Origin: Minisyncoccota bacterium
GTDB taxonomy: Bacteria > Patescibacteriota > Minisyncoccia > Phycocordibacterales > Phycocordibacteraceae
Length of the DNA stretch: 33,045 nt
Direction: 5' to 3'
Assembly (NCBI GenBank): GCA_028687085.1
Contig: JAQUAU010000003.1
Coordinates: 1-33,045 of the forward strand
The notes beneath the pieces are model-generated. The model worked only from the letters and a program-made list of their open reading frames with translations. It searched no databases and was not told the origin of the DNA. Below, piece by piece: positions 6,682 through 28,043 of this stretch. Within the stretch, counting starts at the first letter, position 1; every line of letters begins with the position of its first letter. The position numbers and the translations under genes are program-made.

Positions 6682-6717
6682 CACGCAAATAGAGTTATCC
6701 CCACAAATGGTACCCCC

Positions 6718-6755
6718 TATCCAAAATAGGGTGCGACCGCACCATATTTTGGATA
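6718..6755. repeat. Palindrome A of the CGACCG-core family (downstream flank of Cas2-like gene 1)
   Basis: TATCCAAAATAGGGTGCGACCGCACCATATTTTGGATA; near-complete dyad; ends 1 bp from the stop codon of the 6757-7344 gene; 31/38 identical to palindrome B. Confidence 0.85.
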
Positions 6756-6756
6756 C

Positions 6757-7344
6757 CTACAACGCGCGCAGTCCGAAATGCTCGCGTAAGTGTTTATCGC
6801 GCTCAAGCTGTTCTACGATCATGTAGAGCACATCTACGCCGATGCGGAAATTCGCTTTTGCAAGCGCTATAAGATCTTCGCAATCATAAGGATAAATCCA
6901 GGCGCTATCCTGGAGTCGTACGAATCCATATTCACTCATAAATAACCGCAACTGATTGCGAATTCCCCGGCGACGCTCGGGTATGTCGAAGAGCACTATG
7001 CGCCAACGACCATCCCAACGCCTCGGTTTCCGAGAACTTGCATCTCGCGCAGACTCAAGGGCGAGTATTTGTTCCCCCGCTTCGGTCACCCGTGCGTATC
7101 GCCTGCCGTTCCGCTCTTCAAATGTCACCAACCCTTTCGCAGCAAGCCGCCCGAGCGCGGTCTTCGCCTGGTAGTTGAACCGCGCACCCTTCTTATAGCC
7201 CGGCATATAGCGCAGCAGCTGTGCGGCGTTCGGCATAGTCGCGGCGACGAGCACGACGCCGCCAATGGCGACGGCGGCAAGGAGCCCTTGCTGGAATGCG
7301 CGCAATCTCCGAATTTTCTTTGCTTCTTTTTCAATAACTCCCAT
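6757..7344 (-). CDS. PaaX-like protein: N-terminal hydrophobic helix, winged helix, C-terminal Cas2-like ferredoxin-fold domain (copy 1)
   Basis: KGARFNYQAKTALGRLAAKGLVTFEERNGRRYARVTEAGEQIL (wHTH) then WRIVLFDIPERRRGIRNQLRLFMSEYGFVRLQDSAWIYPYDCEDLIALAKANFRIGVDVLYMIVEQLERDKHLREHF (Cas2/PaaX C-domain). Start taken at MGVIEKEAKK by alignment with the copy at 13932. Confidence 0.8.
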   Translation of the reverse strand: MGVIEKEAKKIRRLRAFQQGLLAAVAIGGVVLVAATMPNAAQLLRYMPGYKKGARFNYQAKTALGRLAAKGLVTFEERNGRRYARVTEAGEQILALESARDASSRKPRRWDGRWRIVLFDIPERRRGIRNQLRLFMSEYGFVRLQDSAWIYPYDCEDLIALAKANFRIGVDVLYMIVEQLERDKHLREHFGLRAL

Positions 7345-7368
7345 ATTCAGACATCTTCGCACAGGAAC

Positions 7369-7406
7369 TATCCAAATCAGAGTGCGACCGCATTGTATTG
7401 TGGATA
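7369..7406. repeat. Palindrome B of the CGACCG-core family (upstream flank of Cas2-like gene 1)
   Basis: TATCCAAATCAGAGTGCGACCGCATTGTATTGTGGATA, about 25 bp upstream of the start codon; paired with A. Confidence 0.85.
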
Positions 7407-12490: not shown

Positions 12491-12599
12491 CGAAAAGGCG
12501 TAAGGTAATTTTTTGGGGCTCCGCAGACTGACGAGGCGAGGACTGAGCGATTTTTCAGCAGAAAAATCGCGTACCCAAAAATTACCTTACGCCTTTTCG
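12491..12599. repeat. Long nested inverted repeat between convergent genes
   Basis: Outer arms CGAAAAGGCGTAAGGTAATTTTT(T)GGG / CCCAAAAATTACCTTACGCCTTTTCG; inner hairpin GCGATTTTTC-agca-GAAAAATCGC at 12547-12570. Confidence 0.9.
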
Positions 12600-13784: not shown

Positions 13785-13817
13785 CAAACCGCCCTTCCGG
13801 ACGGTTTGTATTTTTTT
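13785..13817 (+). terminator. Rho-independent terminator
   Basis: CAAACCG...CGGTTTG followed by TATTTTTTT. Confidence 0.7.
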
Positions 13818-13839
13818 AATACGACTTCAGGCACCTCGC
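13816..13839 (-). pseudogene. Detached rpoD C-terminal tail remnant 2 (ARCLKSY*)
   Basis: Minus strand GCG AGG TGC CTG AAG TCG TAT TAA; TTAATACGACTTCAGG matches TTAGTACGACTTCAGG of remnant 1 at 15/16 positions. Confidence 0.5.
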
Positions 13840-13888
13840 ATTATTGTTTATCCATCCTGATTCCCTCACAACCCCCTCACACATGAAC

Positions 13889-13927
13889 TATCTCTAACTT
13901 GTGCCGACCGGTACATCTCTGGTGATA
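13889..13927. repeat. Palindrome C of the CGACCG-core family (downstream flank of Cas2-like gene 2)
   Basis: TATCTCTAACTTGTGCCGACCGGTACATCTCTGGTGATA, 4 bp from the stop codon; 33/39 identical to D. Confidence 0.85.
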
Positions 13928-13931
13928 CCCC

Positions 13932-14519
13932 TCATTGTTCGGTCGGAAGGTCAAAGTGTTCACGCAAATGTTTGTCGCGTTCAAGCTGTTCAACGATCAT
14001 ATACAATACGTCGGTTCCAATACGAAACTTAGCTTTGACGAGAGAGATGAGTTCTTCACAGTCATACGGGTATACCCAAACACTGTCTTGAAGCCGCACA
14101 AACCCATACTCCTCCATAAATCGCCGGAGTCGCACACGAATGCTTCTCCGTCGTTCTGGAATGTCAAAAATAACTACTCGCCAGCGTTTGTCCCATCGTT
14201 TTGGTTTTCGCGTGCTCGCATCCTTCAATGTTTCTAGCTCTAGCACCCGCTTCCCCGCGTCGGTTAGGCAAGCGTACTGCTTCCCATTACGTTCCTCAAA
14301 TGTAATGAGACCCTTTGTAACAAGACGCCCAAGCACCGACTTGACCCGATAATTTAATCGCGCTCCTTTCTTCTGCCCAGTGTAATACTTTAATATTTTT
14401 GAAAAATCTGGCACTGCGCCGATAGCGACCATAACGCCACCGACCGCGGCGAAAAGAAGCGCCTTTTGAAATGCGCCCCAACGCCGTCCTCTCCTTGCAG
14501 ATTGTTCGATGACACCCAT
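13932..14519 (-). CDS. PaaX-like protein: N-terminal hydrophobic helix, winged helix, Cas2-like domain (copy 2)
   Basis: MGVIEQSARRGRRWGAFQKALLFAAVGGVMVAIGAV...KGARLNYRVKSVLGRLVTKGLITFEERNGKQY...RWRVVIFDIPERRRSIRVRLRRFMEEYGFVRLQDSVWVYPYDCEELISLVKAKFRIGTDVLYMIVEQLERDKHLREHF. Confidence 0.82.
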   Translation of the reverse strand: MGVIEQSARRGRRWGAFQKALLFAAVGGVMVAIGAVPDFSKILKYYTGQKKGARLNYRVKSVLGRLVTKGLITFEERNGKQYACLTDAGKRVLELETLKDASTRKPKRWDKRWRVVIFDIPERRRSIRVRLRRFMEEYGFVRLQDSVWVYPYDCEELISLVKAKFRIGTDVLYMIVEQLERDKHLREHFDLPTEQ

Positions 14520-14559
14520 CTTTCATATGCTATCCCGTGTCTCTATTTTTCTGTATCAC

Positions 14560-14598
14560 TATCCACAACTTGTGCCGACCGGTACATCTTTGAGGATA
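14560..14598. repeat. Palindrome D of the CGACCG-core family (upstream flank of Cas2-like gene 2)
   Basis: TATCCACAACTTGTGCCGACCGGTACATCTTTGAGGATA, about 40 bp upstream of the Cas2-like start and about 10 bp from the divergent promoter. Confidence 0.85.
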
Positions 14599-14608
14599 CC
14601 TTGCTAAC

Positions 14609-15337: not shown

Positions 15338-15373
15338 TTAGTACGACTTCAGGTGGCGGGCTTTATCATGGGC
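15338..15373 (-). pseudogene. Detached rpoD C-terminal tail remnant 1 ([11 protein letters not shown])
   Basis: Minus strand GCC CAT GAT AAA GCC CGC CAC CTG AAG TCG TAC TAA encodes the same last 10 aa + stop as rpoD, with different codons. Confidence 0.85.
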
Positions 15374-15435
15374 GACATTGTTTTGTTATGAGCGGAGCGA
15401 ATTAGAAAACAAGAAGTTCACATGATAATGCTAGT

Positions 15436-16719
<1,284 letters not shown>

Positions 16720-25746: not shown

Positions 25747-26454
25747 CTATGCTGTTGCCGCTTCGGGCGACTTCTTCGAATGGACATCAATGGCGTGCTG
25801 TGCAATCTCGAAGTATTTGTCGTAGCCGCCTGATGCGAGCCCGATTCGATGCAGTGTGTTGTAACGCCTGGTGAATTCAGCTTTCGAATTTCCTGCCAAT
25901 ATCTGCATCCGTTCCCGGTGCTCAGGAGACTTGGCTGACCTCACTCCTTCTTCCAGTCGGAGTACTTCTGCAGCGCAATCTACGAGAATACTGGTGCCGA
26001 TCTGCCTTATTGCTTCATCGTCGGTGTCAGGCAGTAGTAGTTCGAAACTTGCAGAAGTCCAACTACGTGCAAGATCAAGATGTTCGCAGAAATCAACGGC
26101 ATGAGAAATTGTCGCGTCGTCCACCTCTTCGGCCTTTCCTTCAAGAGCCCCGAGTATCACCATGGAGGCCATCGCGAGAAACACCGCCTGTGGTAGGTGC
26201 ACGAACCAGTTCCCCATTCCTTCCTTGTCAGTCACGACGCCCCATACGACAAAGCCGAGAAGAACGAGAAGAACGAGAAGCATCATAGCGAAGCCCAGGA
26301 AACTTCTGTTTCTGTTCCTCCGTTTGTTTTCGACGATTTGCATCGCCGTCCTAACCGGATTGCTGCCGCCGCTGCGCATCCACGCGCGCTCGAAGAGTGG
26401 TGAGATCGTACGCTGGCGACCAAGCTTGGCTAGATATTCAATTGAAATGCCCAT
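25747..26454 (-). CDS. Hypothetical membrane protein
   Basis: 235-aa ORF with two hydrophobic segments (FLGFAMMLLVLLVLLGFVVWGVV; AVFLAMASMVILGALEG); clean terminator; no family recognised. Confidence 0.65.
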   Translation of the reverse strand: MGISIEYLAKLGRQRTISPLFERAWMRSGGSNPVRTAMQIVENKRRNRNRSFLGFAMMLLVLLVLLGFVVWGVVTDKEGMGNWFVHLPQAVFLAMASMVILGALEGKAEEVDDATISHAVDFCEHLDLARSWTSASFELLLPDTDDEAIRQIGTSILVDCAAEVLRLEEGVRSAKSPEHRERMQILAGNSKAEFTRRYNTLHRIGLASGGYDKYFEIAQHAIDVHSKKSPEAATA

Positions 26455-26624
26455 GATAAAGAACTCCTTTTACCTTAAATAGACCATCCGTGGTCGAGCG
26501 AAGGAGGCGTCCGTGCCTCACTGTACTTCGGGTTTCCGGCCCGAATCACAGCTTTTCATCACTCACCCGTGCTCTAAGGCAAAGCAGTAGGCACCTCCCT
26601 TGTACCACATTTCTTTATTAAAGC

Positions 26625-26679
26625 TATTTCTCCTTCCTCCAGGCATCAATCTTGGCGTGATGGCCAGTTTGAAGGACCG
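26625..26679 (-). pseudogene. Detached trmD 3'-end remnant (AVLQTGHHAKIDAWRKEK*)
   Basis: Minus strand GCG GTC CTT CAA ACT GGC CAT CAC GCC AAG ATT GAT GCC TGG AGG AAG GAG AAA TAG; matches the TrmD C-terminus KVLQTGHHANIDKWREKR*. Confidence 0.85.
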
Positions 26680-26680
26680 C

Positions 26681-26720
26681 ATGTTCCATAAGTAATGCGG
26701 TCGCACATGACATGGAACAT
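26681..26720. repeat. Palindrome E of the CGACCG-core family
   Basis: ATGTTCCATaagtaaTGCGGTCGCAcatgacATGGAACAT; its complement shares GTGCGACCGCATT with palindrome B. Confidence 0.75.
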
Positions 26721-26727
26721 CGATGTC

Positions 26728-26757
26728 TCAATTTTTGTCCTATAGGACAAAAATTGA
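26728..26757. repeat. Perfect 30-bp palindrome G
   Basis: TCAATTTTTGTCCTATAGGACAAAAATTGA, no spacer; lacks the CGACCG core. Confidence 0.9.
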
Positions 26758-26770
26758 TACAAGCGGTATG

Positions 26771-26800
26771 CCCTTATTTTGACGGTCGGCAAAATAAGGG
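26771..26800. repeat. Palindrome F of the CGACCG-core family
   Basis: CCCTTATTTTGaCGgtCGgCAAAATAAGGG. Confidence 0.75.
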
Positions 26801-26832
26801 AAAACGACTTCCCCACTTTGGATAAAACAAAA

Positions 26833-26854
26833 CCGCCCCGATGTTCCGGGGCGG
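26833..26854 (-). terminator. Rho-independent terminator
   Basis: CCGCCCCG-gaacat-CGGGGCGG then TTTTGTTTT on the minus strand. Confidence 0.85.
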
Positions 26855-26872
26855 CGCGGTTGTTGCGCGTGG

Positions 26873-27247
26873 CTAACGCGCGAGGGCAAGGGTAAAGGTT
26901 ATCTCGTTTTCTTTGGCCGTCATTGTGACCAGTATTCCCTTTTCAGAGTTTCGGACCGCGTCTTCGAAACAGAGGAGGAGTTGAGAACACTGGCAACGTT
27001 TGAATTCCTCCTCGAGACACTTGGCAAGATGGTAGTTATATTGCCAGTCGAACGACCCGAGCTTGAGGTGAAGATCCTTCGAGGTCGTCACCAGCGTGAA
27101 TTGCTCTCTCGAAGTCACGTCATCGATATACGTCCGATAAACCCGCGACTTATGTTCCAACGCTTCGGTCATACCTTTCCAGACCCACCACAGATGGGAG
27201 TTCTTATCTGCCGGGGGATTGGCGGTCGACAGTACTACTGTATGCAT
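26873..27247 (-). CDS. Hypothetical 124-aa protein between trmD and its detached tail
   Basis: MHTVVLSTANPPADKNSHLWWVWKGMTEALEHKSRVYRTYIDDVTSREQF...; upstream GGAGAA; clean terminator; the longer ORF in the track overlaps trmD. Confidence 0.6.
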   Translation of the reverse strand: MHTVVLSTANPPADKNSHLWWVWKGMTEALEHKSRVYRTYIDDVTSREQFTLVTTSKDLHLKLGSFDWQYNYHLAKCLEEEFKRCQCSQLLLCFEDAVRNSEKGILVTMTAKENEITFTLALAR

Positions 27248-27326
27248 TACATTCTCCTTGGACCCGCAGTAACGTCGCGAACCTGCTTGCCAAGATGGAA
27301 AAAGAACAAGCGACGTTCTTTCTATC

Positions 27327-28043
27327 CTACCTCTTTTCTCTCCACTTGTCAATGTTCGCGTGATGGCCGGTTTGGAGGACCTTGGGGACCTTATAGTTCT
27401 TACCCTTGTATGAAATCGTTTCGGGGCGGGTGTAGACCGCAGAGGAGGCGATGCGGCGTTCCTCAACGGAGGCGTCTTTACCCAAGACGCCGGGCAAGCG
27501 GCGCGTGACGGCGTCGACGATGGCGAGCGCCGGCACCTCTCCGCCGGTATAGACCGCCTCGCCTACGGCAAACTCCTTGACCGGCGCGAGCGTCTTCAAG
27601 ATCTTCTTCGCACGTTCGTCGATGCCCTCGTAGCGACCGCAGACGAGCACCACGTCACTATACTTCGCGAGCGCATCCGCGTCTTTGTTCGTGAACTGCT
27701 TTGCTCCCGGTTTAAACCACACAATCACCGCCTTCTTCCCTTTCTTTTCGCCCATGTAGGGTCTCGTAGACCCTACATTAGATGTAGGGTCTACGAGACC
27801 CTTCAATGCTTTCTGAACAGCTTTGATGATGGGGAGGGCTTGCATCACCATCCCCGGGCCGCCGCCGTAGGGGCGCTCATCTACCTTTTTATAACTACCC
27901 TCTTTCCCCGCGACGAAGTCGCGGGGGTTCTGATACTTTATTGAAATCTTCTTGTCCTTACGCGCGCGTCCGATGATTGACGCGCTCAAGTATGCGTCGC
28001 AAGCTTCTTCAAACAATGTGATGAGATGGAATTTGAGCATCAA
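27327..28043 (-). CDS. trmD: tRNA (guanine-N1)-methyltransferase
   Basis: KFHLITLFEEACDAYLSASIIGRA, RPYGGGPGMVMQALPI, VLVCGRYEGIDERA, EFAVGEAVYTGGEVPALAIVDAVTRRLPGVLG. Confidence 0.95.
   Translation of the reverse strand: MMLKFHLITLFEEACDAYLSASIIGRARKDKKISIKYQNPRDFVAGKEGSYKKVDERPYGGGPGMVMQALPIIKAVQKALKGLVDPTSNVGSTRPYMGEKKGKKAVIVWFKPGAKQFTNKDADALAKYSDVVLVCGRYEGIDERAKKILKTLAPVKEFAVGEAVYTGGEVPALAIVDAVTRRLPGVLGKDASVEERRIASSAVYTRPETISYKGKNYKVPKVLQTGHHANIDKWREKR
27754..27802. repeat. Nested in-frame inverted repeat in trmD
   Basis: ATGTAGGGTCTCGTAGACCCTACAT-tag-ATGTAGGGTCTACGAGACCCT; 21-bp perfect arms spaced by 3 nt, each unit itself a hairpin. Confidence 0.92.

Follow-up and report, generated by a model that had tools for sequence, protein, structure and literature searches.

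Displaced 3′ ends of trmD and other housekeeping genes, and their association with palindromes and Cas2-like genes, in Patescibacteria

What could have left a second copy of the last codons of trmD downstream of the intact gene, and what is the DNA that lies between the two copies? In the window (the whole stretch of 33,045 nucleotides that was analysed, contig 35 of a 0.93-Mb genome in 97 contigs, here G000), a repeat search finds a direct repeat of 55 nt at 26624–26678 and 27327–27381, with 75% identity and the copies 703 nt apart, and when the last 66 nt of trmD are searched by BLAST against the 3 kb that follow, they match at E = 7.5e-9. The minus-strand reading frame of the intact tail ends in VLQTGHHANIDKWREKR and the stop TAG, and that of the remnant in AVLQTGHHAKIDAWRKEK, again followed by TAG. 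The duplication of the trmD 3′ end, claimed in a preliminary description of this DNA, is borne out by the repeat, which is in frame to a stop in both copies; the site of the remnant had been recognised correctly, with a start that was off by 1 nt (26625–26679 instead of the 26624–26678 measured here). Palindrome E does adjoin the end of the homology, starting 2 nt from the remnant, and the 124-aa ORF, the terminator and palindromes E, G, and F all lie between the two tails, as had been described. From trmD downstream, the features are:

27327..28043, minus strand: intact trmD, tRNA m1G37 methyltransferase (Pfam PF01746, E = 8e-31)
27327..27381, minus strand: intact (current) trmD tail, repeat copy 1, with its TAG stop at 27327 (repeat search)
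27260..27317, minus strand: conserved leader between the trmD stop and the cargo ORF, with the inverted repeat AACGTCGC..GCGACGTT (genome comparison)
26873..27247, minus strand: cargo ORF of 124 aa with no assigned family (relatives at the same site in G073 and G067)
26831..26854, minus strand: terminator-like inverted repeat after the cargo ORF (sequence)
26771..26800, unstranded: palindrome F, core CCGACCGT, CGACCG type (palindrome family search)
26729..26756, unstranded: palindrome G, core GTCCTATAGGAC, CCTATAGG type (the same type flanks Cas2-like genes in G017, G066, and G126)
26681..26720, unstranded: palindrome E, core TGCGACCGCA, CGACCG type (palindrome family search)
26624..26678, minus strand: displaced trmD tail (remnant), in frame to its own stop codon (repeat search; BLAST E = 7.5e-9)
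25747..26454, minus strand: second accessory ORF, 235 aa (homologue and leader after the displaced trmD tail in G066)

The leader is found with strong E-values in only three of the 106 family genomes (G000, G067, and G073), each time directly after a trmD tail, and may be regulatory. The 124-aa ORF is accessory, since it has no match in Pfam or NCBIfam and only weak relatives in 3/106 genomes. Palindrome E is nearly identical to the left-end palindrome of a Cas2-like unit at rpsG (L214); a PF20803 (Cas2-like/PaaX_M) match is absent from the trmD insert, and a phage-integrase match is absent both from the insert and from the rest of contig 35. As a separate observation, the leader, about 60 nt long, is 90–96% conserved in the three genomes, and the small protein encoded after it is only 32–44% identical.

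Tails that match at the trmD level (E = 7.5e-9) are rare, only a handful among 722 ORFs at about 80 loci, and the mirrored control with 5′ ends (722 ORFs, about 80 loci) gave no comparable gene-head duplication except for paralogues and chance hits. An assembly artefact as the source of the duplicated tails is ruled out by their recurrence in independent genomes. We consider it probable that the remnant was left as a scar by an integrative element that replaces gene tails and stacks at a hotspot, and that the copy at trmD is without its Cas2-like gene.

Other inverted repeats of the window are recorded here for completeness: a near-perfect one at 27755–27805, in frame within the trmD coding sequence (GLVDPTSNVGSTRPYMG); a perfect one of 21 nt at 199–251, in frame within ORF 12–1607; and one of 26 nt and 96% at 12491–12599, at the 3′ ends of two convergent genes. 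Rfam returned nothing for the trmD region but chance miRNA-type matches to the inverted repeat inside trmD.

The trmD–rpoB interval in related genomes

Up to 20 kb from trmD was taken in 80 genomes of the same genus. A tail profile identified displaced trmD tails in G103, G028, G059, G081, and G022 besides the window, and further ones occur in G105, G066, and G073 (two alleles), giving at least nine genomes of the genus with such a tail. The gap between trmD and rpoB is about 190–240 bp in many genomes, where it holds no insert and represents the empty site, and 0.5–8 kb with unrelated ORFs in many others: the interval is a hotspot. In G066 and G073, the insertions with a displaced trmD tail are palindrome-only, being gene-less or nearly so. 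A GC shift of the trmD tail between loaded and empty sites is weak (p = 0.03, uncorrected, with genomes that are not independent).

The gene order at trmD reads as a series of successive insertions, the newest adjoining trmD. In the window, the leader and the 124-aa ORF come after the current tail. In G073, this leader and an ORF related to the 124-aa one stand behind a displaced tail, their place at the current tail having been taken by a later insert that bears a CGACCG half-palindrome. Furthermore, behind the displaced tail both the window and G066 have a second leader, homologous between them, and homologous ORFs of about 235 aa (34% amino acid identity).

G022, G028, and G081 share one small insert at trmD. 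Between these three, identity is 70–77% for the trmD bodies, 90–94% for the replacement tails, and 62–65% for the displaced tails. Since the replacement tails are more alike than either the bodies or the displaced tails, the current tail came with the insert; in this one trmD trio, the replacement tail travels with the insert. In the window, the intact tail compares with the tails of the closest relatives mostly at 0.82–0.87, and the remnant with the same tails mostly at 0.67–0.71. Because the intact tail resembles close relatives more than the remnant does, either of the two tails may be the newcomer in the window; a crossover near the stop codon would give such a pattern. An intact trmD ending exactly in the remnant sequence, which the preliminary description had proposed to look for in relatives, was found in none of them, but the intact trmD of G084 ends in the same 17 residues as the remnant (identity 0.85 over the 55 nt).

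Short palindromes can promote template switching, and the gene tails are direct repeats on one strand, both of which would suit a local tandem duplication of the last 40–60 nt of the gene, with unrelated inserts gathering later between the copies. This explanation is largely refuted for the trio, in which the current tails are alike between genomes and the displaced tails are not. It would also leave unexpected, for a decaying duplicate, that the remnant of the window still encodes the exact 17-residue ending of a functional TrmD in G084, and duplications of 5′ ends are absent; we find it hardly credible.

Palindromes, Cas2-like genes, and displaced tails at other genes

The preferred reading, an integrative element that replaces gene tails, draws on loci well beyond trmD. 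About 78 PF20803 genes are found in 30 of the 106 family genomes, with up to 11 per genome; related Cas2-like loci with an assigned name belong to Candidatus Kaiserbacteria, Nomurabacteria, Adlerbacteria, and other Patescibacteria. Many of these genes are flanked by matched palindromes with the cores CGACCG, CCTATAGG, or a few variants, and 106 of 136 palindromes have a Cas2-like gene no more than 350 bp away, in a sample enriched for such loci, so that the fraction is not a genome-wide one. The other 30 are orphans, gene-less copies apart from any Cas2-like gene. Across these 30, tail-duplication scores reach 60 for trmD in G000, 19 in G066, and 17 in G073, and 40 in G066 at a different gene, one with an anticodon domain; the null does not exceed 14.

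Among 61 Cas2-like units examined with stop-anchored scores, the tail of the flanking gene recurs on the far side of seven, which score 33–103, while none of 2193 shuffled pairs exceeds 28. These seven are at rpsG, rplE, fusA, rpoD, pheT, gyrA (this one in the window's own genome), and a short unassigned ORF in G109. Extension to 124 units adds an RNase J-like gene, a second rplE (in another organism), a second rpoD, and glmS. Here, reversed-tail and opposite-strand controls served as nulls; random regions contained other copies of the target genes. Just 6/121 units stand above every null when the most stringent control is applied, in which the opposite strand scores at most 38. The usual order of a unit is the gene with its current tail, optional cargo, a palindrome, the Cas2-like gene, a palindrome, about 10–50 nt, and the displaced tail. 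Counting all searches, tails are also displaced at rpoD, rpoC, rpsG, rplE, fusA, gyrA, pheT, the RNase J-like gene, and others. It is thereby shown that tails are displaced at many genes and that the palindromes are linked to Cas2-like genes, and the tie between 3′-end duplication and one palindrome family, which had been proposed from two cases, now includes many Cas2-like units with those palindromes inside duplicated housekeeping 3′ ends.

Two loci deserve separate mention. The fusA duplication beside a Cas2-like gene in G017 (L222) was not counted, the gene lying between rpsG and fusA, outside the duplication. At the pheT-tail insertion of G015 (L208), a phosphoglycerate-mutase-like cargo gene, recognised by eye, lies between the current tail and the Cas2-like unit. 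How Cas2-like units are oriented with respect to the ends of neighbouring genes gave no information. Some Cas2-like units are away from any gene 3′ end, including one of the two in the window, the other being found behind sigA:

15338..15372, minus strand: displaced sigA (rpoD) tail 1, 10 residues, behind a small hairpin insert (tail search)
14558..14600, unstranded: palindrome, core CCGACCGG, on one side of the Cas2-like gene 13932–14519 (repeat search)
13932..14519, minus strand: Cas2-like (PaaX_M) gene between sigA and the second displaced sigA tail (PF20803, E = 8e-20)
13887..13929, unstranded: palindrome, core CCGACCGG, on the other side of this gene (repeat search)
13816..13839, minus strand: displaced sigA tail 2 (ARCLKSY*), degraded, beyond the Cas2-like unit (tail search)
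6757..7344, minus strand: the window's other Cas2-like gene, away from gene 3′ ends (Pfam, repeat search)
6717–6755 and 7368–7406, unstranded: palindromes flanking the Cas2-like gene 6757–7344 (repeat search)

The sigA/rpoD tail is displaced in at least eight genomes, where ten codons in the small hairpin insert are recoded almost throughout: nearly every one of the last ten, the stop included, differs from the displaced tail, and the protein is unchanged. Comparison of these hairpin inserts does not tell mobility from vertical descent. With respect to their structure, the small insert behind sigA (window 15362–15480, minus strand; also L131–L152) contains the hairpin ACTTCTTGTTTTCTAATTCGCTNCGCTCATAA.AAAACAANGTCGC, a dispersed repeat of many family genomes that is often found inside a larger palindrome with locus-specific outer arms. 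In the sigA inserts (window 15360–15475, minus strand), an inverted copy of the pre-stop codons stands directly after the new stop, so a hairpin spans the stop, and the sequence of its stem covaries in several genomes, as judged by eye.

On the tree of the Cas2-like proteins, target genes as labels change 23 times, against 43 times when shuffled, and none of 200 shuffles is as low. The proteins thus cluster by target gene, to which vertical inheritance may contribute in part. This clustering, the recoded sigA endings, and the essential nature of the targets would all fit a homing-type selfish gene, whose Cas2-like protein would cut uninterrupted tails and whose spread would be by copy repair; recoding of the tail would shield the occupied allele and still leave the essential protein able to function. 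Against this, no cleavage activity is known for this Cas2-like subgroup, its PaaX relatives are transcription regulators, other replacement tails differ from the displaced one no more than by ordinary species divergence, and many inserts have no Cas2-like gene. We regard homing as quite improbable.

A different kind of insert is found in G063, where duplicated rpoC tails in the rpoC–dnaG interval (L067) enclose a Fic/Doc-type toxin gene and a probable antitoxin gene, with no palindrome of the CGACCG/CCTATAGG family and no Cas2-like gene. The trmD inserts of G103 and G105 likewise displace the tail but have neither. Since these three tails were displaced without a family palindrome, the palindromes are not required for the scar. 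Inserts of this kind (rpoC in G063, trmD in G103) are explained by the main rival, homology-facilitated illegitimate recombination after natural transformation, in which a donor fragment with a gene tail and the DNA downstream of it is joined homologously inside the recipient gene and illegitimately at its other end, the old tail being pushed downstream and the palindromes and Cas2-like genes being passengers. The process has already been put forward to explain how 3′ ends came to be displaced in Vibrio T6SS effector and Rhs genes (PMC5361080), and Patescibacteria have been described as naturally competent (PMC12455944), which makes it plausible. It would, however, be expected to leave ends anywhere, yet all the remnants detected, by tail queries only, measure about 25–75 nt and start near the same codons, nor would it predict any linkage to a palindrome or gene family, such as that of the 106/136 palindromes or of the Cas2-like clades with their target genes. 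On this evidence, we think the recombination explanation rather unlikely, and return to the tail-replacing element.

Proposed mechanism and comparison with known systems

In the proposed mechanism, the element would enter trmD about 18 codons before the stop, probably by way of a circular or single-stranded intermediate, and would bring, in this order, its own copy of the last codons of the gene with a stop, optional cargo, and palindromes. The gene would remain whole, with a new ending in place of its own, and its former ending would be pushed downstream as an in-frame fossil of 25–75 nt. Repeated insertions would stack cassettes between trmD and rpoB in the manner of an integron, the newest adjoining trmD. 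Autonomous copies would consist of one PaaX_M gene between two matched palindromes beside a displaced tail, and the insertion at trmD in the window would be a non-autonomous or decayed member, because palindromes E, G, and F and a cargo gene are present and a Cas2-like gene is absent. The part of the preliminary description that called it a non-autonomous derivative is supported by this composition and by the palindrome-only trmD inserts of G066 and G073, while transposition by the Cas2-like protein is something that we infer.

The Cas2-like protein is a winged-helix and Cas2-fold (PaaX_M) protein. It belongs to Pfam PF20803 and scores above the NCBIfam cas2 cut-off; AlphaFold gives high confidence for the C-terminal half only, and the best Foldseek matches are PaaX (8a39), followed by Cas2 structures. 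The protein may recognise the palindromes and/or the gene tail and catalyse integration. Most of the genomes checked, among them G066, G017, G073, G081, and G101, have one tyrosine recombinase each, and these five have 1–11 Cas2-like matches each, so that a dedicated tyrosine integrase per element is unlikely. The specific idea that a stand-alone Cas2-fold protein, in the absence of Cas1, works together with paired palindromes and serves as a site-specific integrase, swapping the last codons of one particular housekeeping gene, is one that we put forward tentatively and with some doubt. If true, it would describe a widespread patescibacterial mobile element with a recombination unlike that of known transposases and integrases, and it allows a direct test of whether the integration of DNA can be driven by a Cas2-fold protein when Cas1 is absent. 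The element would also account for the gain of accessory genes by streamlined Patescibacteria at fixed hotspots in the absence of phage-type integrases, and for the many stray genes in their genomes to which annotation pipelines would give the name cas2, and the displaced tails would be a readable, ordered record of past insertions. The open-access literature gave no description of Cas2-like elements with palindromes, nor of tail displacement in Patescibacteria.

Several known systems share part of this picture. Streptococcal ICEs and IMEs of the tyrosine integrase type use the 3′ ends of housekeeping genes (e.g., the rplL, rpsI, guaA, and rpmG sites), form direct repeats of 12–54 bp with the gene tail, and have recombinases that group by insertion locus (PMC4701971). 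The inserts described here likewise lie precisely at the 3′ ends of conserved genes, leave the gene intact, and form short direct repeats with its tail (about 25–75 nt), and the Cas2-like protein, if a recombinase, also groups by insertion locus, to which vertical descent may contribute. Unlike ICEs and IMEs, they can be as short as about 100 bp, their repeats differ by 6–27%, palindromes are associated with them, and no tyrosine or serine integrase was seen in them, the only recurrent gene being the Cas2-like one.

REPtrons, in which RAYT genes (IS200/IS605-type TnpA-REP) are flanked by palindromic REPs and accompanied by non-autonomous REP copies (PMC3733652), resemble the Cas2-like units in having one gene between matched short imperfect palindromes, with gene-less palindromes elsewhere. 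The gene here is, however, a PF20803 Cas2-like/PaaX_M gene and not an HUH tyrosine transposase, and it is coupled to replacement of host 3′ ends. At polymorphic toxin and T6SS effector loci (PMC5361080), too, a new 3′ end and a downstream gene arrive, the old end is displaced, and events stack into arrays; there, a large functional domain is swapped under diversifying selection, whereas here about 8–25 C-terminal codons of essential genes are exchanged and function is unchanged.

PaaX regulators and CRISPR Cas2 share with our protein the PF20803 assignment, the NCBIfam cas2 score, and the top Foldseek matches, but the genes described here are multicopy, patchy, flanked by palindromes, and located in duplicated gene tails, and in their neighbourhoods, as read by eye, neither Cas1 nor a CRISPR array was noticed. 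Finally, Rickettsia palindromic elements (RPEs) are short palindromic mobile elements inserted in frame inside protein-coding genes. The elements proposed here are like them in being short, palindromic, mobile, and tolerated in frame within protein-coding genes, and differ in that, rather than interrupting the gene from within, they would replace its ending and leave the old one behind.
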